A DNA stretch of 64,000 nt from Maylandia zebra (lineage: Eukaryota; Chordata; Actinopteri; Cichliformes; Cichlidae), in assembly GCF_041146795.1 (NCBI RefSeq), contig NC_135173.1:54624365-54688364 (forward strand). The letters are read 5' to 3'. The position numbers and the translations under genes were made by a program. Below are positions 1 to 52,100 of this stretch, piece after piece (position 1 is the first letter of the stretch; every line of letters begins with the position of its first letter). The notes below the pieces were generated by a model. It worked only from the letters and a program-made list of their open reading frames with translations, was not told the origin of the DNA and did no database searches.

Positions 1-64
1 CAAGCAGCACAAGCAGCTCTTGCAGCAGCAGCAGCAGCAGCTGGAGGGGGGGTAGAGAGGGCAT
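1..64 (-). CDS. Possible first-exon start of an unidentified secreted/membrane protein (partial, runs off window)
   Basis: Read on the minus strand from an ATG at 64-62, the frame stays open to the window edge. It encodes a short Met-Pro-Ser-Leu-Pro-Pro stretch followed by a run of leucines (the CAG/CTG repeat at 22-41), which looks like the hydrophobic core of a signal peptide. The sequence to the right (65-1400) is rich in CT/GA tracts and CG-containing segments, as upstream regions often are. I do not recognise the gene. On the plus strand the same bases read as a Gln/Ala-rich tail ending at TGA 76-78, so the opposite interpretation (last exon of a plus-strand gene) is also open, and a non-coding CAG repeat is possible. 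Confidence 0.22.
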   Translation of the reverse strand, partial: MPSLPPLQLLLLLLQELLVLL

Positions 65-4310: not shown

Positions 4311-4389
4311 GCTCACAGCGAGCATCAGAGCCATCTGACCGGCCTGGGCAGCAGAAGGCAGGAGTCAAACACAGGAAGAAACAGGGTAA
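4311..4389 (-). pseudogene. 79-bp partial copy of a kank1 exon/intron boundary
   Basis: This segment is a direct repeat of 7772-7850, with about two mismatches by eye. The source contains the first 33 bases of the kank1 exon beginning Ala-Gly-Gln-Thr-Ala-Leu-Met (7604-7804), its 3' splice acceptor, and about 45 bases of the preceding intron. The copy keeps the same orientation and lies about 2.7 kb beyond the kank1 stop codon. It has no downstream exon body or donor, so it cannot encode a full ankyrin repeat. The near-identity implies a recent local duplication or an assembly artefact. Confidence 0.85.
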
Positions 4390-5320
4390 AAGAGCTGGGT
4401 GTCAGGATGAAGAAAAATTGGTGCCTGCCAAACCAAAAAAGGAAAGAAGTGTTCGTGCTTCAGCCAGGCACGAGCCTGGTTGAGATACTTCAGGTGGAAC
4501 AGTGGTAAGCACTGCTGTCTCACAGCAAAGAAGGTACTGGGTTTGAATCCACCAGCTGGTTGAAAAATCTCTTACACAATGACAGAGCTCACGTGACCCT
4601 TCCTTTGTGTGTGACTAAAAACATTATCAGAGGCTCCATTTTTCCTTTCCTCCAGCAAATGTGTAACACATATAACACAATAACGTGCTACCTTAAAATT
4701 CCTTACTATTAAACATGGGACTAATCTTGTCATCTGTCAGACTGTATTTATTTATTACATTGCTGATATTTATTTGTACATTTTGTCCATGATTGGTAGA
4801 AAAGGATGTGCTACAGATATGTAGTAGTTTATGCTGCATCTTCTTACCCTGTTTACATAGTATAAAGTAAAAGCTTTGCCAAAAAATAAACAGTTTTTAA
4901 AGATTACAAAACATATAAATAAAAAGGCCACTTGGGTTGAATTGAACTTTTGTTGGAATCATGAACAAAAAGGGTATTTTGACATTTACAGTAAACAACA
5001 AGTAATCATGCATTTCAACATAATCTATAATCCTTATGAATTTAAAATAGTAAACTATGTTGCCATGCATCTATATTCCTGTAAGTTATAGTAATGTACA
5101 CAGTATGGTGTCAATAACTTTAGTATATTTAATGAAGTCATGCAAACCTTTACTATGGTATCATGGATATTTTCTGAGGTACAGATCCTTTAAGTACGAA
5201 AGGGCTGGGTCAAGATTTTGCACTTTGTAATTTTTGTTACTTTTACCCCAGCACATTTGAGCCCTGTGACTTTACAAATAATATGAGATTTAAAAATAGT
5301 ACAAAATTTCACCTTAGCAC
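4390..5320. other. Gene-free AT-rich stretch
   Basis: Apart from the SINE-head fragment at 4493-4553, I see no gene or recognised repeat. The sequence is AT-rich and contains scattered short ORFs without recognisable content. Confidence 0.5.
4493..4553 (+). repeat. Fragment of a tRNA-derived SINE head
   Basis: The segment resembles the start of the full SINE at 58770-59155: a GTGG..CAGTGGTAAGCACTG stretch (A-box-like) followed by TCTCACAGCAAAGAAGGT and GGGTTTGAATCC (B-box-like). It is only about 60 bp, so it is a truncated remnant. Confidence 0.6.
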
Positions 5321-5324
5321 CAAG

Positions 5325-6755
5325 TAAAACCCAATTCCAAAACTGCTGGGATGCCGTATAAAAAATAAACAAATAAATAAAAAAGCTATGATTTGCAAAT
5401 CTCTTAAACCAATAACTTTTCACAATAGTACATAAAAAATAAATCAAATGTTTAAATAAAATGTACTATTTAAATTTTAATTTAATGGAGCAACATAACT
5501 CAAAAAAGTTGGGAATGGGCAACAAGAGGTCAGAAATTTAGAGATACTAAAAAGAAACCGCTGGAAGAACAAAAGGTTAACTGAGAATTTGTCAGTAACA
5601 CGATTGGGTAAAAAAGTGCAGCTTAGAGACGCAGAGTTTCTCAGAAGTGAAGATGGGAAGTATCTAGAAGATACAAATTATGGAACAATTTCAGAATGAT
5701 ATTTATCACTGTGAAGACTTACTCATCATCTACAGTATATAAAAGGATTCCTGCAATCTGTAGAAATCTCTGTGCAGAAAGGAACAAGTCTGAAAATCCA
5801 ATAGTGGATGCCTGTGATTTTCAGGCCCTCGGGCATTGAAAACAGCCACTATTTGGATTTGTTCGGAAATCACTGTTATGGAAATCACTGAATGGGCTCA
5901 GGAACACTTCCAGAAATCACTGTGTGTGAACACAATTCACCGTCCCATCCACAAACGCAGGTTAAAGCTCTATCATGCAAAAAAAGAACCCCTATGTGAA
6001 CATGATCCAGAATTGCAGCTGTCTTCTCTGGTCAAAGCTCATTTTAAGAGAACTGAGGCAAAGTAGAAAGCTGTTCTGTGGTCAGATTTTTTTGGAAAAC
6101 ATAAATGCTGCATCCTCCAGACTAAAGATCAGAAGGATCGTCTGGTTTATTATCAGCACGCAGCTCAAAAGCCTGAATCTCTGATGTTTTTTTGACATTA
6201 GTATCTATGAAACAGCAGCTGGCACTTCTGAAAAGGCACCATCAGTGCTGAAAAGTATGTACAGGTTTTAGAGGAAAATATGTAATGTCTTTGCTGCTGA
6301 TATAATCTTAGCATACTTCATATGCTGAGACCATGCTACTGCATCTATTGCAGCAGCATGGCTTCATAGAAGAGTTTGGATGCTGAAACAAAAAGTACAA
6401 CAAAGACAACACACAACTGTTGAGCAGTTAGAATCGCCTATCAGATAGGAATGAGGCAATTCTCCTCTACCAGAGGGTCTAGCAGCTGGTCTCCTCAGTT
6501 CCCAGATGTTACAAAGAGACGTTACAGAGTGTTGCTAAAAGAAGAGGGGATGCCCCGCAGTGTTAAACATGGCCTGTGCCAAAGTTTTTAGATATGTTCT
6601 GGCCATCAAATTCAAAATAACCTGATTTAAAAATAAGAATAAAAGGTTTGACATGTGTTCTATGTTCCACCTTCAATAAAAAAAATGGGTTGAAATGATT
6701 TGCAAATCATTGCAATCTACTTTTATTTCCATTTAACACAGCATCCCAGCTGAAG
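5325..6755 (+). mobile_element. Decayed full-length Tc1-like transposon
   Basis: The outer ends are inverted relatives: TTTGCAAATCTC..(5385-5405) against GATTTGCAAATCATTGC (6696-6712), each next to a 'GGGATGC' or 'GCATCCC' end. The interior encodes broken pieces of a Tc1-type transposase in plus orientation, for example about 5836-6066 (Glu-Trp-Ala-Gln-Glu-His-Phe) and 5975-6184. The 3' part (about 6480-6570) still resembles the element's C-terminal coding end. Several frameshifts and stops make it inactive. The same family recurs, deleted, at 49400-49990. It lies immediately 3' of kank1. Confidence 0.8.
6722..6727 (-). terminator. Candidate polyadenylation signal for kank1
   Basis: An AATAAA reads on the minus strand, about 350 bp beyond the kank1 stop codon at 7078. 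It lies in the right end of the Tc1-like relic. The 3' end of the transcript is not visible in the sequence, so this is only a candidate. Confidence 0.3.
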
Positions 6756-7077: not shown

Positions 7078-14502
<7,425 letters not shown>

Positions 14503-14782
14503 GCCCAGTAGTTTTGAATCATCACCACTAGATGATGACAAGGACTCTGCAGAATACCACTGACTAGATGAAATGCCCCTCTGCGTTTTGTCCACATTAC
14601 TGCCGGCCACCCTGGGCCTCCTTTTTAGGCTTAGTCGCTTAATGGTGGCGGCGTCTCAGAAACTGTCCACACTCTTGATGCAGTCCACTTCAGACTGATA
14701 ACTGTAATCAATTTCAAGGTGGTTAGGGAACCAGTGCTTTGGCCTGTTAAATAGTTGGACAGCTGTACTTTAATCTTCCTCT
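14503..14782 (-). other. kank1: 5' part of the kank1 large exon with decayed KN motif
   Basis: The exon's acceptor (CTTTTCAG) ends at 14783. Read in the kank1 frame, the exon carries TAA early (about 14770-14772), then a stretch with HLEIDY (compare QLDLDF in KANK), a divergent insert, TGA at 14656-14658, and [11 protein letters not shown], which matches the end of the KN motif (TIKKLNIQKRR in KANK1). No ATG lies in frame between the two stops. GCCGCCACC directly precedes an in-frame ATT at 14643-14641. Either translation starts downstream, or an assembly error hides an intact motif; the wide divergence argues against a single-base error. Confidence 0.7.
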
Positions 14783-14789
14783 CTGAAAA

Positions 14790-16400
14790 GAGTAGTCAGG
14801 GAAGCAAAAGAATAAAAATAAAACAGCAAAAATCCAGACCAAACATTATGCAGAAAGGTGGAAAATCTTTTAAAAAAAATACAATAAATAAATCTTACAG
14901 AAAATAAGAAGTTGTTGTAAATTTAAGTTTTAAATAACATTTAATCATCATGAATCATCATGAATACACAGTAAAATCTTGAAGGCTTTAGGCTATATAC
15001 TCTTCCCTTTTCTTTCCTTACCTTAGTATGTGTTGATCAGTGACCATTTCTCTGAGTCTCAAGCCTTCCTTCACTTCAAAATGTTTCTGACTCTAATCTC
15101 TCTGAGCCTGTCCCACAAGGGGAGGAGGGAGAGAGGAGTGTCTACCAATCCTGCAGACACTTTTTTCAGTAGTTACTTCTCTCCCAATGGTATGTCTCTC
15201 TCTACATAGACTGAGCCCACTCTATAATTACTCGGCAACTCTCCCTGTAAATGCCCAACCATTCTCTTGGCAGGACTTCTTAACCACAAACATATTCCAA
15301 GTATTTTAGCCACTGAATATAAAAGCAAAGAAAATACCTAGGACAACACAATTCTAACCTATAACTATATTTAAATAGTAAATGTTAAATGCATTAAGCT
15401 GGAATTGCAATAAATTCCATCATACAACCCCTATTATCAAAAAGTACATTTCATGCATTACTTCCAGAAGCATGTACAAATTACAAACATTTTTGTGACT
15501 CTAAAGCATTTAGGTTAGTGGTAATTATATCAGTTATCATTACCTGACATATTCCTCAGGACTTAAAAACCTTGAACGTGTTTCAGAATATCTCAATAAT
15601 GATTTAATTCCTTTTTCATTCAGCCTAAACTTTGAATAAGTCTGCAAATAAAAGAAAAACACATCAAATTAACTTTGAACCTTGGTGTTGCTGTCTCATT
15701 CGTATGAGCTCCTTCTCTCTCTCATCCCAGGTCTGACAGTCGATAACAGCTAACATTACAGTGCTTGCATAAAGGAAATGCAATACTGAGACATGGTCAT
15801 TTCTGCACAACTACAGGAGGATGGGGCTTAGCCTCAACACACTGTCATTGCAATGCTATCCCCTATCACATTTTCATTGATAAGCACCTTTCGGTTCTCA
15901 GCATGCTGGTGTTTTGAGAAGGCTTCCTCTCTTCTTCTCCCTTCATAGAAAGTCAGTTTAAAGAATTACTGAAATCTATATTTAATATATATATATATAT
16001 AATACAACAATCTACTCTAATATAATATAATCTGATATAGCATTTATAATTAACATGCATAAAATAATGACTTATGTGAGGAGCAAGCCAAGTGGAGTTG
16101 GAAAAGGAGGATTTAACAACTTGATATCTTTTTTGTAAGCTGCCTGCATTTTTCTACATTTTTTAGAACTTGATACCCCGAAAGAGTCAAAACTATGTGA
16201 AGCCCAGCAAATGTGTAAGTAAATTGGTGTGTACAAAGTCAATCCAAACTAAACATCAAAAACACAGACAAGTTGCTATTTGCATACTACTGAGACATAA
16301 ACAATCTGAAAAATACTGTTTATTTTGCAGAACCAATGAAAATGGTATTACTATGAAATAAATTACAGTTTTCTCTGGCTGGAGGTAAGGTTGACTAATC
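14790..16400. other. Upstream region of kank1, no coding exon seen
   Basis: Besides the putative non-coding exon at 15022 and an (AT)n tract at about 15984-16001, I see no gene. The sequence is AT-rich. Confidence 0.45.
15022..15160 (-). other. kank1: Probable upstream (5') exon of kank1
   Basis: On the minus strand a strong donor (CTAAG|GTAAGG) ends an apparent exon at 15022. An ATG in this exon, if spliced to the acceptor at 14783, gives a 12-codon ORF (Met-Val-Thr-Asp..) that stops at the TAA in the next exon. The exon is therefore most likely 5' UTR with a short upstream ORF. Its 5' boundary is not visible. Confidence 0.4.
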
Positions 16401-16402
16401 AT

Positions 16403-16583
16403 CTGCTGATTCAAGTGTTTGTGGGTCTCTGTAACAGCCTGTTCCATCACAGGGCTTTATCTCTACAGCTGGTTTATCTGACTTGACTCATCTGTGGCTA
16501 ATCTGAGGTTGCTGGACTTCTCAGTCTTTTTGTGTTATCCACTGAGAAGCCACGTGGTAGATCCACCTCGAGATGTAGAATGA
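16403..16583 (-). pseudogene. Degenerate partial copy of the kank1 large exon
   Basis: This segment aligns with 14300-14485 of the kank1 large exon. Shared blocks are CTGATTCAAG.GTTTGTGGGTCTC, TTCCATCACAGGGCTTT, TATCTGAG, TTATCCA, CCA.GTGGT and CTACCTCGAG versus CCACCTCGAG. On the minus strand it reads MEQAVTETHKHLNQQ against [15 protein letters not shown] in kank1. Many indels break the frame and no splice sites are visible, so it is a non-functional relic, older than the copy at 4311. It lies about 1.4 kb upstream of the kank1 5' exon. Confidence 0.8.
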
Positions 16584-16609
16584 ACGGATCGTCATTCTAC
16601 AACTCGAGG
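16566..16609. repeat. Long palindrome (18-bp arms, 8-bp loop)
   Basis: CCTCGAGATGTAGAATGA is followed by ACGGATCG and then the inverse complement of CCTCGAGTTGTAGAATGA. The arms match at 17 of 18 positions. The left arm is the end of the kank1 exon copy; the right arm is its inverted repeat at the junction with the next transposon. Confidence 0.9.
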
Positions 16610-26438: not shown

Positions 26439-28930
26439 TAGGGTTGCAAAGGGGCGGAAAATTTCCGGTAAATTTCCGAAAAGTTTCCGGTAAATTTCCA
26501 TGGTAAGTTAAGCTTGGGAATTTTGGAAATATTCCATATTGGAAACTGTCCATGGAAATAATGGGAATTATGGAAATTAATGGGAATTTAGGAGAACTAA
26601 CTGGGAATATATTATTTCCAAGCATAAATATAAACAGAAATCATAAGAAAACCTCCATGCAAAATGTTTTCAACAGTTATTTCAACAGATTTATTTGTAA
26701 GTACAGTAGAATAGAACACGTTTCAATAACTTGTTTCATGGATGAATAAAAACAGAAATGTTGAGTTCAATATTACCATCCCCTAACCCCGCTCATTCAA
26801 AAATGCCCCCTGTCCAAAAATCTCCACAAAGTCCCATTCTAAAGGTTAAAAGAAAAATGCCACTTATCCTCCAAAACGTCCCATTAAACATGCAAATCTT
26901 CCTTCAAGCAATCGTCTTTTCTCATTTTTGCTCAGTCAATAGACTCTTCCTGGACCTCATCATCATCCAACAACATGTTCACTTCCTCAGCATCCAACTC
27001 TGAGTCTTCCTCTTCAGTGTCACTTTCCAGCCTTGTTGAGGATGGCTCTGTGTCAGGCTCAAAGAGCCGTAGGTTTGCCCGAATGCCGACCAGCTTTTCC
27101 ACTCTCACATTTGTGAGCCTGTTGTGAACCTTTGTGTGGGTGTTGCCAAACAGTGACCAGTTGCGCTCGGAGGCGGCTGATGATGGTGGGATTTGGAGGA
27201 GGATGGAGGCTACAGGTGCAAGGGCCTCAGATTCACATAGTCCCTTCCACCAGGTGGCTGCAGATATGTGCTGGCATGACTGCCATATTCCATCCCCTTT
27301 CCAAAGACCTTGCTTTGTTCGATACTTTGCCAAACTGCCTAGAACTTTGCCTTTATCGAGACCCAGGTGGTCAGACATGGCTGTAATGACTGCATAGGCA
27401 CCGTTGATCTCTTCCCCAGAAAGTATGCCCTTGTCATATTTGGGGTCCAGCATGTATGCTGCATGCACTGGCTTCATGCAGAACTCCCTCCGCTGTTCCA
27501 ATGACTTGACCACAGCTGTTTCCTCTGCTTTCAGTAGTAGGGAAGTGGGCAGAATTGTCTGGATTTCTTCTTTGAGTTCTGCAAAAAGGCACTGGACATC
27601 TGACAAGATGGCACCATCCCCATCTATCTTCGCCATTGCTGCTGCAATAGGTTTGAGGATTTTCTGACTGCTAGATACTCTTTCCCAGAACACATCATCC
27701 AAGATGACCTTCTTGATGTCACTGTCGATGCCTACAGACTGGGATATGGCCATCTCTTGCAGAGACTCCTTTCCCTCCAGAAGGCTGTCAAACATGATAA
27801 CAACACCACCCCATCGCGTTATGCTGGGAAGCTTCAGTGTAGTACTCTTGTTCTTTTCCTTTTGCTTTGACAGAAATGTAGCGGAAGTTACTTGTTTGCC
27901 TTTAACATATTTCAGAACTTGCTTCACTCTCTTATTCAGAGTGTCCATTGGTTTTAGTGCCATTATGTCTTTTAGGAGAAGATTTAGTGTATGGGCTGCA
28001 CAGCCAATAGTAGTTATATGAGGGTAGGTCTCCTCCACATGTGCCCAGGCAACCTTCCTGTTGGCTGCGTTGTCAGTGACCAGTGCAAAAACCTTATCTG
28101 GTCCAAGGTCATTGATGATCACTTTTAGCTCATCTGCAATGTATTGGCCTGTGTGTCTGTTTTCCTTTGTGTCTACACTCTTGTAGAACACAGGCTGAGG
28201 AGTGGTGATTATGTAGTTAATAATTCCTTGTCCCCTGATATTGGACCATCCATCAGAGATGACTGAAATACAGTCAGCTTGGTCAATGGTCTGTTTCACC
28301 TTTGCTTGAACTCGACTGAACTCTTCATCCAGTAGATGAGTAGACAATGCATGTCATGGCTTATTTAGCGTCTAACAGATGCTAGCATTTTATTTAGCAT
28401 CTTATCAGATTGCTATCTACCAGATTAATACATTTTATGTGATATTCACAATTTAAACATTTAATGAATATATTTTCCCATAATATCATCAAAACTTACC
28501 TCACTTGTTAAGTCCACAGGCTCAAATGTGTGCCTTCAATACTCTTTGTCCTTCAGGCTCAAAAGTGTGGTCCATGTGTACATGTGATGGAGGCATGCAC
28601 AGTGCCAGTAGGTGGTCTCAATAGCCATGCAGCAAGCTTGTGCTCTGTACATGTGATTAAGGAATGGCATGGATATTCAAGTGTATTTGAATTGCATTTG
28701 TTTGTTTTTGTCAATATTATGCTAAAATATACTTTGCTCAACTATATTTAAGTTCCCTAAGAAGAGCCAACCTTCAATTTTGAAAATTCCCACTTTATTC
28801 CCATAAATTCCCACTTTATTCCCACTTTATTCCCATAAATTCCCATAAATTCCCGTTAATTCCCGTTTATTCCCATAAATTCCCGTTAATTCCCATGGAA
28901 AGATTCCATCTTTGAAAATTTGCAACCCTA
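26439..28930 (-). mobile_element. hAT transposon with perfect ends and 8-bp target duplication
   Basis: The 2492-bp element starts TAGGGTTGCAAA and ends TTTGCAACCCTA (12-bp inverted repeats). It is flanked by GTGACGAT on both sides (26431-26438, 28931-28938). Subterminal zones are filled with short repeats: TTTCC/GGAAA-rich units at 26457-26595 and about ten TTCCCATAAA/TTCCC units at about 28785-28905, the usual layout of transposase-binding sites. It carries the transposase ORF at 26932-28347. Confidence 0.95.
26932..28347 (-). CDS. hAT-family transposase, N-terminally incomplete
   Basis: A 471-codon ORF inside the element at 26439-28930. Seen: SVISDGWSNIRGQGIINYI (start of the RNase-H-like DDE core), FALVTDNAANRK, GCAAHTLNLLLKDI, a TRW motif (SITRWGGVV), and a C-terminal dimerisation block (PPSSAASERNWSLFG..NRLTNVRVEKLVGIRANLRLF) followed by an acidic tail. 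It resembles the DUF659/ZBED-like hAT enzymes. These normally begin with a BED zinc finger, which is absent. The frame is closed by TGA just upstream of 28347 and I see no acceptor after it. A donor-like GTAAGT near 28493-28498 hints at a lost upstream exon. The enzyme is therefore probably inactive although most of the catalytic core is unbroken. Confidence 0.9.
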   Translation of the reverse strand: MSTHLLDEEFSRVQAKVKQTIDQADCISVISDGWSNIRGQGIINYIITTPQPVFYKSVDTKENRHTGQYIADELKVIINDLGPDKVFALVTDNAANRKVAWAHVEETYPHITTIGCAAHTLNLLLKDIMALKPMDTLNKRVKQVLKYVKGKQVTSATFLSKQKEKNKSTTLKLPSITRWGGVVIMFDSLLEGKESLQEMAISQSVGIDSDIKKVILDDVFWERVSSSQKILKPIAAAMAKIDGDGAILSDVQCLFAELKEEIQTILPTSLLLKAEETAVVKSLEQRREFCMKPVHAAYMLDPKYDKGILSGEEINGAYAVITAMSDHLGLDKGKVLGSLAKYRTKQGLWKGDGIWQSCQHISAATWWKGLCESEALAPVASILLQIPPSSAASERNWSLFGNTHTKVHNRLTNVRVEKLVGIRANLRLFEPDTEPSSTRLESDTEEEDSELDAEEVNMLLDDDEVQEESID

Positions 28931-32366: not shown

Positions 32367-32698
32367 AAGCAGATGTTTGATCAGAAGCTGAAGGCCCGGT
32401 GCTTTTGAAGGAGCTCTTTTGTATACAGAATGCAGAATAATTTATGTAGCCCTAGTATGCTGGGTGGAATCCATACTGTCTGCTTTTCTCTGAAATCTAA
32501 ACCACTTCCTTTTTAATGTGCGTTTGTCAGTGTCAGCATTCAAGGGCCTCGGTGCCCATGAGACCGCCTAACACTTACACATTTCAGGCACTCTTGTTTA
32601 TTTCAATTTTGTTCAGACTGTGTATGATTATAGGTTACAGAGTCAATATTTAGATTCTGCAGGAAAAGCAAAACTCAGCCTGTTCATTTTCCCCTGGC

Positions 32699-39784: not shown

Positions 39785-40326
39785 CACATACATCAATTAC
39801 GGTCTTCAGCGGTCTGCGTCACGACCGCGTGTGACGAGCGAATCAAAACAGTTTATCGGACCAATGGGACGCGGTCCCTGCGGAACCTAGTCACCCCACA
39901 ACTACACAACCCGTATTTCAAAGCGGTTGCAGCTGGAGTGGATGTGGATTAATAGTGAAAAGAGTGACTTTAGGATCGAGTGTTCCCAGTTGCATGTGGA
40001 ATAAACAAGCTGTGGGTCTTTCTTTTTTCTTTTCTTTTTTTCCCTTGTAAACTTCACCAAAACTTTTTTTTTGTGGACGACAGATGCAAAAGTGAGGCCA
40101 CTAGAGAGGAACCGCACGGACGGAAGGGGGGAAAGTGGAACTTTGTTATGGATTTCGGAACTTTTAGGATCTTAACGTGATGCGCTTGTTGTGCCTACTT
40201 TGTGGCGCACCGCTAACTTCAAGTCACCGACTTGTGACGTGATCTAAAATCATCAGGGAGTAGCTCTCTGAACTGTTGATGCGACAGGATGGAGTAACGC
40301 TTTTCTAAGATTCATTCTCGGAGGAA
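39785..40326 (+). promoter_or_regulatory. CG-rich 5' region of gas1
   Basis: The stretch before the gas1 ATG is richer in CG dinucleotides than its surroundings (for example 39805-39835 and 40105-40125). It probably holds the promoter and 5' UTR. No TATA box is evident and the start site is not visible. Confidence 0.45.
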
Positions 40327-41106
40327 ATGGGAAGTCGTGCCACATTGATGGAGCGAACAACGGTTTTTATATACGGCGTGTTGATCCTAATCCTCGGTCT
40401 CTGTGTCGGATCTCCCAACCACAGCCACCGACTGGTCTGCTGGAAAGCCATCCTGAAGTGTCATGCAGAGCCAGAGTGCCAATACGCCTACAATCAGTAC
40501 ATCTATGCCTGCGCGTCTGTTTTGAGCGGGGAACGCAAAAAGTGCCCCAGTCACTGCGTGTCCTCTTTGATTCAGCTCAATTTAACCCGGAGCGGCCCGG
40601 CTCTGGAGGACTGCGACTGCGCCCAGGACCCGAACTGCAGAAACACCAAACGGACCATCGAGCCGTGCCTGCCGCGGACTAGCACCATGGGCTGCACCGA
40701 GGCCCGGCTGCAGTGTGAAATGGACCCGCACTGCAGCTCTGCCATGGGGGATTATTTATATCACTGCCGCAAACTTTTCGGTGGAGAAAGGTGCTCAGAT
40801 GCGTGTCGCAAAGTGATAGCCAACATGCGTTCCATACCTAAAGCGCAGCAGCTGGACACCTGTGTGTGCGACGGCACCGAAAGGAACATATGTGAGTACA
40901 TCAAAGTCAGCATGAAAACTTTCTGCTCCGACTCCAGTGACAGGTACGCGGGAAGCGGCTTCTCAGACTCCGAGGAGGACACTGAGAATGATTATATGGA
41001 TCTGGAGGATGAGCCATATGTGGAAAACTCAAGTGACACGGCACATTTTCAGACTGCTGTGTTCAATACTCTGACTACCATTCTGGTTTTAGCCAAAATT
41101 ATCTGA
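40327..41106 (+). CDS. gas1: Growth arrest-specific 1, GPI-anchored Hedgehog co-receptor
   Basis: GAS1 is a cell-surface protein that promotes Hedgehog binding to Patched and also modulates GDNF/Ret signalling; structurally it is a GFR-alpha relative. The single-exon ORF gives 259 residues (human GAS1 is 345), as expected for this intronless gene. Seen: a hydrophobic signal peptide (about 12-28); Cys-rich domain 1 (CWKAILKCHAEPECQYAYNQ.., about 38-115); Cys-rich domain 2 (GCTEARLQCEMDPHCSSAMG.., about 121-199); an acidic Ser/Asp/Glu-rich linker; and a C-terminal hydrophobic tail (FNTLTTILVLAKII) for GPI attachment. Sequons include Asn31-His-Ser and Asn85-Leu-Thr. A second Met at codon 8 is an alternative start. 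The teleost a/b copy is not decided. Confidence 0.95.
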   Translation: MGSRATLMERTTVFIYGVLILILGLCVGSPNHSHRLVCWKAILKCHAEPECQYAYNQYIYACASVLSGERKKCPSHCVSSLIQLNLTRSGPALEDCDCAQDPNCRNTKRTIEPCLPRTSTMGCTEARLQCEMDPHCSSAMGDYLYHCRKLFGGERCSDACRKVIANMRSIPKAQQLDTCVCDGTERNICEYIKVSMKTFCSDSSDRYAGSGFSDSEEDTENDYMDLEDEPYVENSSDTAHFQTAVFNTLTTILVLAKII

Positions 41107-47862: not shown

Positions 47863-48885
47863 TGGCCAAGACCAAAGAGCTTTCGAAGGACACCAGGAAA
47901 AGTATTGTAGACCTGCACCAGACTGGGAAGAGTGAATCTACAATAGGCAAGCAGCTTGGTGTGAAAAAAATCAACTGTGGGAGCAATCATCAGAAAATGG
48001 AAGACATACAAGACCACTGATAATCTCCCTCGATCTGGGGCTCCACGCAAGATCTCATCCCGTGGGGTCAAAATGATCATGAGAACGGTGAGCAAAGATC
48101 CCAGAACCACACGGGGGGACCTGGTGAATGACCTGCAGAGAGCTGGGACCAAAGTAACAAAGGTCACCATCAGTAACACACTACAACGGCAGGGAATCAA
48201 ATCCCGCAGTGCCAGACGTGTTCCGCTGCTGAAGCCAGTGCATGTCCAGGCCCGTCTGAAGTTTGCCAGAGAGCACATGGATGATACAGCAGAGGATTGG
48301 GAGAATGTCATGTGGTCAGATGAAACCAAAGTAGAACTTTTTGGTATAAACTCAACTCGTCGTGTTCGGAGGAAGAAGAATACTGAGTTGCATCCCAAGA
48401 ACACCATACCTACTGTGAAGCATGGGGGTGGAAACATCATGCTATGGGGCTGTTTTTCTGCCAAGGGGACAGGACGACTGATCCGTGTTAAGGACAGAAT
48501 GAATGGGGCCATGTATCGTGAGATTTTGAGCCAAAACCTCCTTCCATCAGTGAGAACTTTGAAGATGAAACGAGGCTGGGTCTTCCAACATGACAATGAT
48601 CCAAAACACACCGCCCGGGCAACAAAGGAGTGGCTCCGTAAGAAGCATTTGAAAGTCCTGGAGTGGCCTAGCCAGTCTCCAGACCTCAACCCCATAGAAA
48701 ATCTGTGGTGGGAGTTGAAAGTCCGTGTTGCTCGGCGACAGCCCCAAAACATCACTGCTCTCGAGAAGATCTGCATGGAGGAATGGGCCAAAATACCAGC
48801 TACTGTGTGTGCAAACCTGGTAAAGACCTATAGTAAACGTTTGACCTCTGTTATTGCCAACAAAGGTTATGTTACAAAGTATTGA
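47863..48885 (+). pseudogene. Tc1 transposase, one frameshift from intact
   Basis: The coding region starts at ATG 47863 (MAKTKELSKDTRKSIVDLHQ..) and continues in one frame to about 47965. A run of seven A bases (47964-47970), where six would keep frame, shifts the reading. The remainder is open from about 47977 to the TGA at the end: 302 codons including the GRPR-like linker ([11 protein letters not shown]), [11 protein letters not shown] (first catalytic Asp), [11 protein letters not shown] (second Asp) and [15 protein letters not shown] (catalytic Glu), a DD34E triad. Apart from the single base, about 340 residues are uninterrupted. This is one of the youngest elements in the window. Confidence 0.93.
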
Positions 48886-49159: not shown

Positions 49160-52100
49160 TTAGCAGTACTCTTCACTGTTTCTGTCTCCACTGCACGCAG
49201 CTCCCGGGACACCATCTGTGTTACAGCCACGTGTCCTGGTGCGTTTCCCTCCACTGCAGTTGGACCAGGCAGACCAGCAAGACCAGTTACCTTCATGAAC
49301 AACAGCCGGCCTTGTACCTGGCACACATTTTTCAAATTAACAAATGCAGGGAAAATTACTTAAAGCAACATGAGCGAGGCCTTGTTAGAATGATAAGATT
49401 TACGATCCCAATTCCAAAAAGAAAGGTGGGATGCTGTGTAAAATGTAAATAAACCAGAATCCAGTTATTTGCAGATCTCATAAACCCATATTTTATTCAC
49501 AATAGAACATAGAAAACATATAAAATGTTTAAACTGAAATTTTGCTATTTCATGGAAAAATATTAACTTGTTTTGAATCTCAAATCTCAAAAAAGTTGGG
49601 ACAGAATGATGTGGCATCCATGTTTTCCATAAGGAATTTCAAATATCAATTAATCTGATCACAGAACACTTTTCCGATTTGTCTCAGTCCATTTTAAGTC
49701 ATCTTTGGCCAAAAGAAGACCGCAGTGTTTCTGGATCATATTCACATATGGCATCTATTATGCACAAAAGAGCTTTAATCTGCATTTGTGGATGGTGCAG
49801 AAAACTATGTTTCAGTGCTGATTGTGTAAAGAGCTGAGGCATCCAATATTGTGTTCCAGTTTCTGCCTCAGGTTTCTTTTTTAAATCTTATCTACATTCT
49901 GTGACTAAGATATGGGTTTATGAAATCTGCAAATCATCAAAATCTGCTTTTATTTAGCATTTACTTAGCATCCCAACTTTTGTTGAAGTTGGGTTGCATT
50001 GAGAAAACAACTGTTTAGGCTTACCTTGGACACGAATTCTATCACGCTTGTAAGTCTGGCAAGCAGCGCCTTCAAACAATTGCAAGCACAGACAGATACA
50101 CTTTCCATCCAGCAGAGCAAGAGTGCCTCCATTTTGACAGGGCCTGCACTTGCATACGTTATATTCTGCCACATACTCTGCAATAGCCCGCTTCAAGTTT
50201 GATATCGTGGAGTTAGCGCCTGGAATTTCCAGTGGAATTAACATGTGGATGGGCTCTGGCTGCCATAAACAACAAAATATATGCAATATGTTAAAATACA
50301 TTAGAACATATATTAGAAGGAGTTTTGTTAGAATATATTAATATTTTTTCATTTCATATTTATCGTAATTTGTTGTGTTAGCATGCTAATATTTAGCAGT
50401 GAGTGTTGAACACAAAGTAGCCTTTAAACTTTGAGCCTTTGCCTTTGCAAAGTCAAAACTATGACTGATAGAAAAGCTCCAATTAAGGCTGCACACACTC
50501 AAGGATCTAAGTTTTAAAAAAAATAAAATATAACTTCTTCATCCCTTTCTTGGTCTTCCATGTGAACCTGTTGATGATGTGGACACCGAGGTACTTGTTC
50601 TCCTTCTCCACATCAACACATAATTTCCTTAGGGATTAATAAGGTATTCTGATTCTGATCCTCTAACAGAATAGACATGGAGGATGTAGCTGCTGATGCA
50701 TCTAAAGTCAATTACCATTTCTCTCGCCTTATTTACATTCAGAAGAAAACGATTCCTCCCAGACCACTCTGCACAATCACCCACTGCACTGTTCCTCTCG
50801 CCAGCTGCTAATAATATCCAACCACTGGAGAACTGTCAGGGTATTTCTGTAGGTGGCATGACCCCGCAATTGTATCTTGAGTCTGAGGTGTACAAGGTGA
50901 ACAGAAATGGAGACAGTACAGTCCTCTGTGGAGACTCTGTAGTACATATAATCAACTCACACTGAGCACTGCTCAGTCACACATACTGCAGTGTGCCTGT
51001 CCGGTAGGTGGTAATCCAATAGGTCAGAGGTATAACAAAACACATGTCTGTGTTAAGTTTTTTAGTAAACACTCATCTATCACATTGCAACTGTTCAGTG
51101 GCATTTAACAATTCTATGAGCTCACTACATTGTTGTCTACATAAGATTCCCTAAAGTGAAAGTGTAGAGTCGGGAGTATGGCAGTTCATTTTAAGGATGA
51201 CATTTATGTGTAAAGTTTCACAGCAATTCGCAGTTGAGAAAGTTTAAACCATGTGAGTGCACCAGAAGAAAAGTAAATGTCATATGTGTAGTAGAAGCTA
51301 CCTGCATAAATGCTGTGCTGATTCATTGAGTTAGGTAATGTCACCAGTTTAGTGAAGACACTGATGATAGCCCTAGATAATATAAAAGTCTGGTTTGATT
51401 ACAGTCATTAGATCAAATTTCTGCAATAGCAATCCCTTAAGAGATTTTGGTAACACTTTATACTACAGCCAAAGGAGCTTTTAATGAAATCAATTCAATA
51501 TTCATTATGTTGGTGTGCATGATGAATTTTATTAGTCCATTATTCTTTTATTTTACCTTATACTATATACTTACTGCATATTTATTGTTGTTTCATGTAA
51601 AAACCTGACTTGTTACCCCCTTTTTCCACTAGGCCTACCTTTAAGCATTTGTATAATTTGTGTATCCTTTCTGGTAAAATACCCAGAATGTAGGCATTAC
51701 AGTGGTCCCTCGCTATAACGCGGTTCACCTTCGGCGCCTCGCTGTTTTGTGTGCAATTTTGCACACTTTTGTTTTGTTTTGTTTTTGTTTACAGCGCATT
51801 GTGTTCTGCATCCTGATTGGCTGTAGACCATGGGCCAGTCAATCTCGTGCCGTGTCTCCTGTACAGTGCAGAATGCGTTCAGCTTGTCAAATTTACATAA
51901 ATCTTCGATCACTAGCAGTGTGACTCTGAAGTGCTGGACCGCGGGTGCCTTTGGTTTCATTCTATAATACTGGACTTATTTTTCTACAAAGGTTTGAACT
52001 TTGAGAGAGTTTAAACAAGAGAGAAAAGTGTGAAAATGTTAATGCCTTTCTGAGAAAAGTGTATAAAGTGTGTAGTGAGGGGTTTTGCAGCCTTAAAACA

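Follow-up and report, generated by a model that had tools for sequence, protein, structure and literature searches.

A KANK1 gene of a fish with a decayed, stop-severed KN motif and a probably talin-blind product

The analysed window, a 64-kb stretch of fish DNA, contains a minus-strand KANK1 gene, for which nine coding exons from 14782 to 7078 were modelled from sequence alone. KANK1 links cell-adhesion sites to microtubules, and its KN stretch grips the adhesion protein talin. The splice sites were placed by hand, guided by the matches and the phases, and the model may miss a further small exon. As placed, all eight introns were of the GT–AG type with continuous phases, and 1,167 codons were open between a TGA near the 5′ end of the first exon and the stop ending at 7078.

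Two of the parts by which KANK proteins are recognised were found in this model. The coiled coil that follows the KN motif matched KANK1 in its complex with liprin-β1 (PDB 8iw0, E 1e-19), and the C-terminal ankyrin repeats matched KANK1 over 246 residues (PDB 5ybe, E 3.4e-112, 376.7 bits). Among the 17 PDB chains listed for the ankyrin domain, which include no KANK4 chain, KANK1 chains scored higher (376.7 bits) than those of KANK2 (285) and KANK3 (254). By these scores the domain is of the KANK1 type, closest among the KANK1–3 structures. In the 817-aa ORF of the large exon, no Pfam family scored above cut-off. When relatives of this ORF were sought in bacterial and archaeal contigs, 19 stretches fitted the pattern and none of the 19 was confirmed, and viral contigs contained none; both collections are uninformative for fish.

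Stray copies of parts of the gene were seen on both sides of it. Upstream of kank1 and on the same strand lies a decayed noncoding copy of part of the large exon, which stops just short of the KN region and whose end runs into a short palindrome, located by eye at about 16563–16607. Downstream, 4311–4401 is a copy of the intron/exon 7 junction (7772–7863), 97.5% identical over 79 bases and probably a small, recent duplication. A GAS1-like ORF of 265 codons (40309–41106, plus strand; Pfam GDNF/GAS1, 40.4 bits) lies upstream of kank1 at a distance of 25 kb, and a complement C9-like exon (49957–50337, minus strand; PDB 6dlw, E 6.5e-19) also lies upstream of the gene. Both gas1a and kank1a are listed as neighbours of the zebrafish dmrt1 cluster in the part of that study available to us (PMC7689362), and both kank1a and kank1b are described as kept in some teleost species (PMC4904190, in part). 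No convincing DM domain was present in the window (best E 0.28), which ends 7 kb past kank1. The window also holds long open frames assigned by Pfam to transposases of the hAT (26932–28353) and Tc1 (47965–48885) families, and a dispersed repeat, 71–77% identical between 5330–6751 downstream of kank1 and 49407–49795 beside the C9-like exon.

Table 1. Features of the kank1 locus, in window coordinates
Feature	Position	Strand	Remarks
Decayed noncoding copy of exon stretch 14270–14497	16377..16580	minus	78% identical in aligned columns, 15 gap openings
Probable splice acceptor CTTCCCTGACTACTCTTTTCAG	14783..14804	minus	opens the large kank1 exon, just before 14782
kank1 exon 1 (large exon)	14782–12228	minus	
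In-frame TAA	14770..14772	minus	near 5′ edge of exon
KN-motif relic	14659..14727	minus	aligns to P30–I52 of KANK1, gap-free, in the kank1 frame
TGA	14656..14658	minus	at the Q53 position
Candidate non-AUG start GCCGCCACC-ATT	14641..14652	minus	ATT 14643–14641; GCCGCCACC at 14652–14644
Rival non-AUG start, in-frame GTG	14608..14610	minus	−3 A, +4 G
Out-of-frame ATG 14597, 66-codon ORF	14397..14597	minus	overlaps in-frame ATG 14502
First in-frame ATG	14500..14502	minus	−3 G, +4 T
Liprin-β1-binding coiled coil	13876..14061	minus	core 40/51 residues identical to KANK1
Ankyrin domain	7239..10792	minus	exons 4–8 of the model
kank1 exon 2	11940–11788	minus	
kank1 exon 3	11266–11158	minus	
kank1 exon 4	10792–10705	minus	
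kank1 exon 5	10112–9893	minus	
kank1 exon 6	8904–8762	minus	
kank1 exon 7	7804–7604	minus	
kank1 exon 8	7337–7239	minus	
kank1 exon 9	7140–7078	minus	includes the stop

The 5′ part of the large exon carries a relic of the KN motif. The KANK1 reference peptide used for comparison ends in what we take to be R60 and L61. Its residues P30–G55 were confirmed letter for letter by PDB 8ivz, and N56–K59 by PDB 8as9, which ends in KK. Just upstream of the TGA, the gap-free register reads YSYQSEVDC for YGYQLDLDF; nine of the 26 KN residues (P30, E34, Y37, Y39, Q40, D44, K47, V49, and D50) are identical, and all five residues of T57–L61 (TIKRL), which follows the KN block, are retained. A preliminary description of this DNA had traced the kank1 frame upstream through the TGA to the TAA, as the sequence confirms, and had reported a decayed KN motif in which HLEIDY stood for QLDLDF. 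The decay was borne out both by the nine remaining residues and by a profile score below cut-off, but the alignment was seven codons out of register. The HLEIDY register was rejected because it needs a seven-codon insertion, and the gap-free register fits instead.

Among 127,846 gap-free window positions in six frames, the relic was the best match to the 26-residue KN peptide (score 42; next 25), and none of 20,000 residue shuffles reached its score. With 13-residue pieces of the KN peptide the relic was not distinctive, tying for first place in two of the four, both times with a plus-strand site at 32602, and falling outside the best five in the other two. The Pfam KN_motif profile aligned 32 residues of the relic to 32 profile positions at 13.6 bits (E 0.062), against a curated cut-off of 26 and a control score of 78.2 bits for an intact KN peptide; no match to this profile was obtained when TIKRL was removed from the relic, when only the segment beyond the stop was used, or when the relic was reversed. 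A 62-residue query spanning the relic returned nothing from PDB sequences up to E 1. We take the relic to be a genuine KN motif in an advanced state of decay. Since the N-terminal KN motif with its LDLDF talin-binding core is represented here only by this subthreshold match with a TGA inside it, the gene, by the features compared, descends from KANK1 yet is not a KANK by the KN definition.

The lesions affect residues through which KANK1 contacts talin. L41 and F45, both talin-contact residues, are replaced by S and C, respectively, and L43 by V; no ATG occurs in any frame from the acceptor down to 14597. In the part of the published work available to us, L41E and F45E abolish binding of the KANK1 peptide to talin R7R8 and L43E and V49E weaken it, while in cells each of the four mutations abolishes recruitment by talin (PMC10281804). 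The substitutions in the relic (to S, V, and C) differ from these charge mutants, and the retention of V49, Y37, Y39, Q40, D44, and K47 counts against a loss of binding. With L41 and F45 both substituted and the TGA separating the relic from the remainder of the protein, we infer, in line with the preliminary description, that talin binding is lost in any product of the exon, and the protein made by this kank1 gene is probably talin-blind. The reading that we favour, and hold to be probable, is that this KANK1 gene is alive but no longer has its N-terminal KN motif for binding talin.

An alternative, which we consider unlikely, is that the N terminus, possibly including an intact KN motif, comes from an upstream exon, either beyond the window or interrupted by an intron, that is joined to an acceptor after the TGA to give a normal or near-normal protein. 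The acceptor at 14783 suggests that exons exist further upstream. Between the TGA and ATG 14502, 17 of 51 residues match the partly unverified human KANK1 reference, among them TIKRL, W-x-S-x-ESLSSS, and DD, as though the stretch were being translated. This points somewhat towards initiation upstream of 14502 or the use of an upstream exon, although homology alone is no proof of present translation. A short human KANK isoform exists and bears on how variable KANK N termini are. Such variability is also seen in a fly KANK isoform that lacks the KN motif, as described in the part of that study available to us (PMC4159139). AG sites that would give exon starts between 14654 and 14527 number 14, and three of them (exon starts 14546, 14544, and 14527) are preceded by 56–63% pyrimidines, overlapping the range of the nine acceptors of the model (56–94%), whereas the other 11 are preceded by only 25–50%. 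The preliminary description had allowed for another exon with an intact KN motif; we looked for one in all six frames of the 64-kb window, which covers 49 kb upstream of the gene, and found no second contiguous 26-residue KN motif. Thirteen-residue pieces gave only weak, scattered matches elsewhere in the window (27–29 of a possible 67–76), some of them equal in score to the relic's own pieces; this search targets a contiguous motif, so that an intron-split one would be missed or lost among the weak matches. The relic is moreover in register with the large exon, and the motif was therefore formerly encoded there.

We give similarly little credence to the view that the whole kank1 gene is dying and that the lesions struck the KN region first by chance. 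This view accommodates the missing start codon, the two in-frame stops, and the nearby stray copies of gene parts, one decayed and one near-identical. Against it, the nine exons hold an open frame of 1,167 codons and all eight introns retain GT–AG. At least 24 of 78 nucleotide sites in the relic are changed, whichever codons are assumed for the KANK1 peptide, compared with 12 of 153 in the coiled coil by the same measure. Simulated drift by point changes at the rate seen in the relic (27% of sites; n = 200) introduced about 22 stops into the 817-codon ORF, with a minimum of 10, whereas none was observed. Drift of 5% introduced 4.9 stops on average, and runs with no stop occurred, so that a very recent death of the gene is compatible with the open 817-codon ORF.

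The extent and manner of the decay bear on its history. The KN block is expected from the literature to be near-invariant, yet its nine identities in 26 fall inside the spread of 31 other blocks of the exon (1–19 identical), as measured against a partly unverified KANK1 reference. Across 32 codons the relic contains no indel, which is unexpected for sequence that has long escaped coding constraint; the noncoding copy at 16377–16580, by comparison, has many gaps. The stop is therefore perhaps younger than the amino-acid changes: in this one sequence, decay of the encoded residues may have set in before translation of the stretch ceased, with the stop and the loss of the start codon following later.

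A further possibility concerns the start codon. The preliminary description had noted an in-frame AUU in a perfect Kozak context. GCCGCCACC indeed directly precedes ATT 14643 and makes the upstream context ideal, with A at −3 and C at −4, both favourable, but position +4 is A, not G. That this AUU is the principal start, its context having been selected after the loss of the KN motif, is in our view unlikely. GCCGCCACC occurs only once in the 64-kb window, where 0.10 occurrences are expected, although 10 of 100 shuffles also contain one. ACC ATT at this site encode the retained T57–I58, and only six bases of the context therefore need explaining. The AUU precedes the out-of-frame AUG 14597. 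According to the parts of the literature available to us, AUU serves as the main start codon of PTEN-M (PMC4892431), and a C at −4 favours non-AUG initiation, AUU outperforming CUG in some contexts, but A in place of G at +4 reduces non-AUG initiation, up to 10 times for CUG (PMC9082881). Predicted RNA folds are ordinary both downstream of the AUU (z 0.26) and around it (z −1.28), and GUG 14610 combines A at −3 with G at +4; further in-frame near-cognate codons are also present. These observations give weak support to a start at AUU 14643, which is one candidate alongside GUG 14610, AUG 14502, and an ATG in a putative upstream exon.

That the TGA and the other KN lesions are sequencing or assembly errors is very improbable. 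One wrong base could create a TGA, but no single error would also account for at least 24 changes among 78 sites, the absence of an ATG, and a TAA elsewhere, and the reading frame is preserved on either side.

If, as we favour, a living KANK1 gene has lost its KN motif, its mode of action may be outlined as follows. The old KN code still lies inside the first large coding exon and would now serve at most as 5′ leader, because it has no ATG, its talin contacts are altered, and it ends in a stop. Translation, supposing that the gene is expressed, would begin downstream, either at AUU 14643 or GUG 14610 at low yield or at AUG 14502 by leaky scanning, or else at an ATG in an upstream exon. The product would keep the liprin-β1-binding coiled coil and the KIF21A-binding ankyrin domain and could join cortical microtubule-stabilising complexes via liprin or other KANK chains without anchoring them to talin. 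In the part of Bouchet et al. 2016 available to us (PMC4995097), KANK1 without the KN motif shows no enrichment around focal adhesions, and the KANK1-4A mutant is dispersed over the cortex while still colocalising with LL5β through liprin-β1. By analogy, the present protein may be a cortical, liprin-linked, talin-blind KANK1. It might still reach adhesions as a dimer with other KANKs, a route that has been suggested for talin-binding mutants (PMC10281804, in part). When overexpressed, the coiled coil CC1 acts as a potent dominant negative (PMC4995097, in part). That a vertebrate lineage has fixed a talin-blind KANK1 made only from AUU 14643 or GUG 14610 amid the debris of the KN motif, perhaps with a dominant-negative action, seems to us a rather improbable extension.

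KN-mediated talin binding is treated as a defining job of vertebrate KANKs. A KN-less vertebrate KANK1 under constraint, if confirmed, would imply that the microtubule and cortical roles of the protein are selectable without talin. It would provide a natural counterpart of the laboratory talin-binding mutants, that is, a natural separation-of-function adaptor between adhesions and microtubules. If the start were non-AUG, the gene would also show how a gene survives the loss of its start codon.

In the part of Hensley et al. 2016 available to us, every KANK protein examined, from Trichoplax and Hydra on, has the KN motif (PMC4904190). A contrary study, also seen in part, describes non-bilaterian KANKs without a conserved KN motif and finds the motif in three of four molluscs and three of six arthropods (PMC9145010). 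KANKs without the KN motif, namely a fly isoform and some invertebrate proteins, are thus already known. Among the matches listed from titles and abstracts of the open-licence literature, no report concerned a vertebrate KANK gene with a lost or relic KN motif.

The gene resembles known KANK1 in the liprin-β1-binding coiled coil of its large exon, its KANK1-closest ankyrin domain, and the TIKRL end of the KN region, but differs in that the KN motif is decayed and severed by a stop and that no ATG lies upstream of it in the exon. Isoform A of Drosophila kank is likewise a KANK product without the KN motif; it is one isoform, however, and other fly isoforms apparently carry the motif (PMC4159139, in part). 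KANK homologues of sponges, other non-bilaterians, and some molluscs and arthropods also have no conserved KN motif, but they are invertebrate proteins, and no relic is mentioned in the part of that study available to us (PMC9145010). PTEN-M offers a parallel in that a possible AUU start has A at −3; in contrast to the single kank1 sequence, the AUU of PTEN is conserved across 52 eutherians and was proved through mutation (PMC4892431, in part). The engineered KANK1 mutants (4A, KN deletion, L41E, and F45E) resemble the predicted protein in combining a coiled coil and an ankyrin domain without talin binding, whereas the present case is a natural genome sequence with several substitutions plus a stop.
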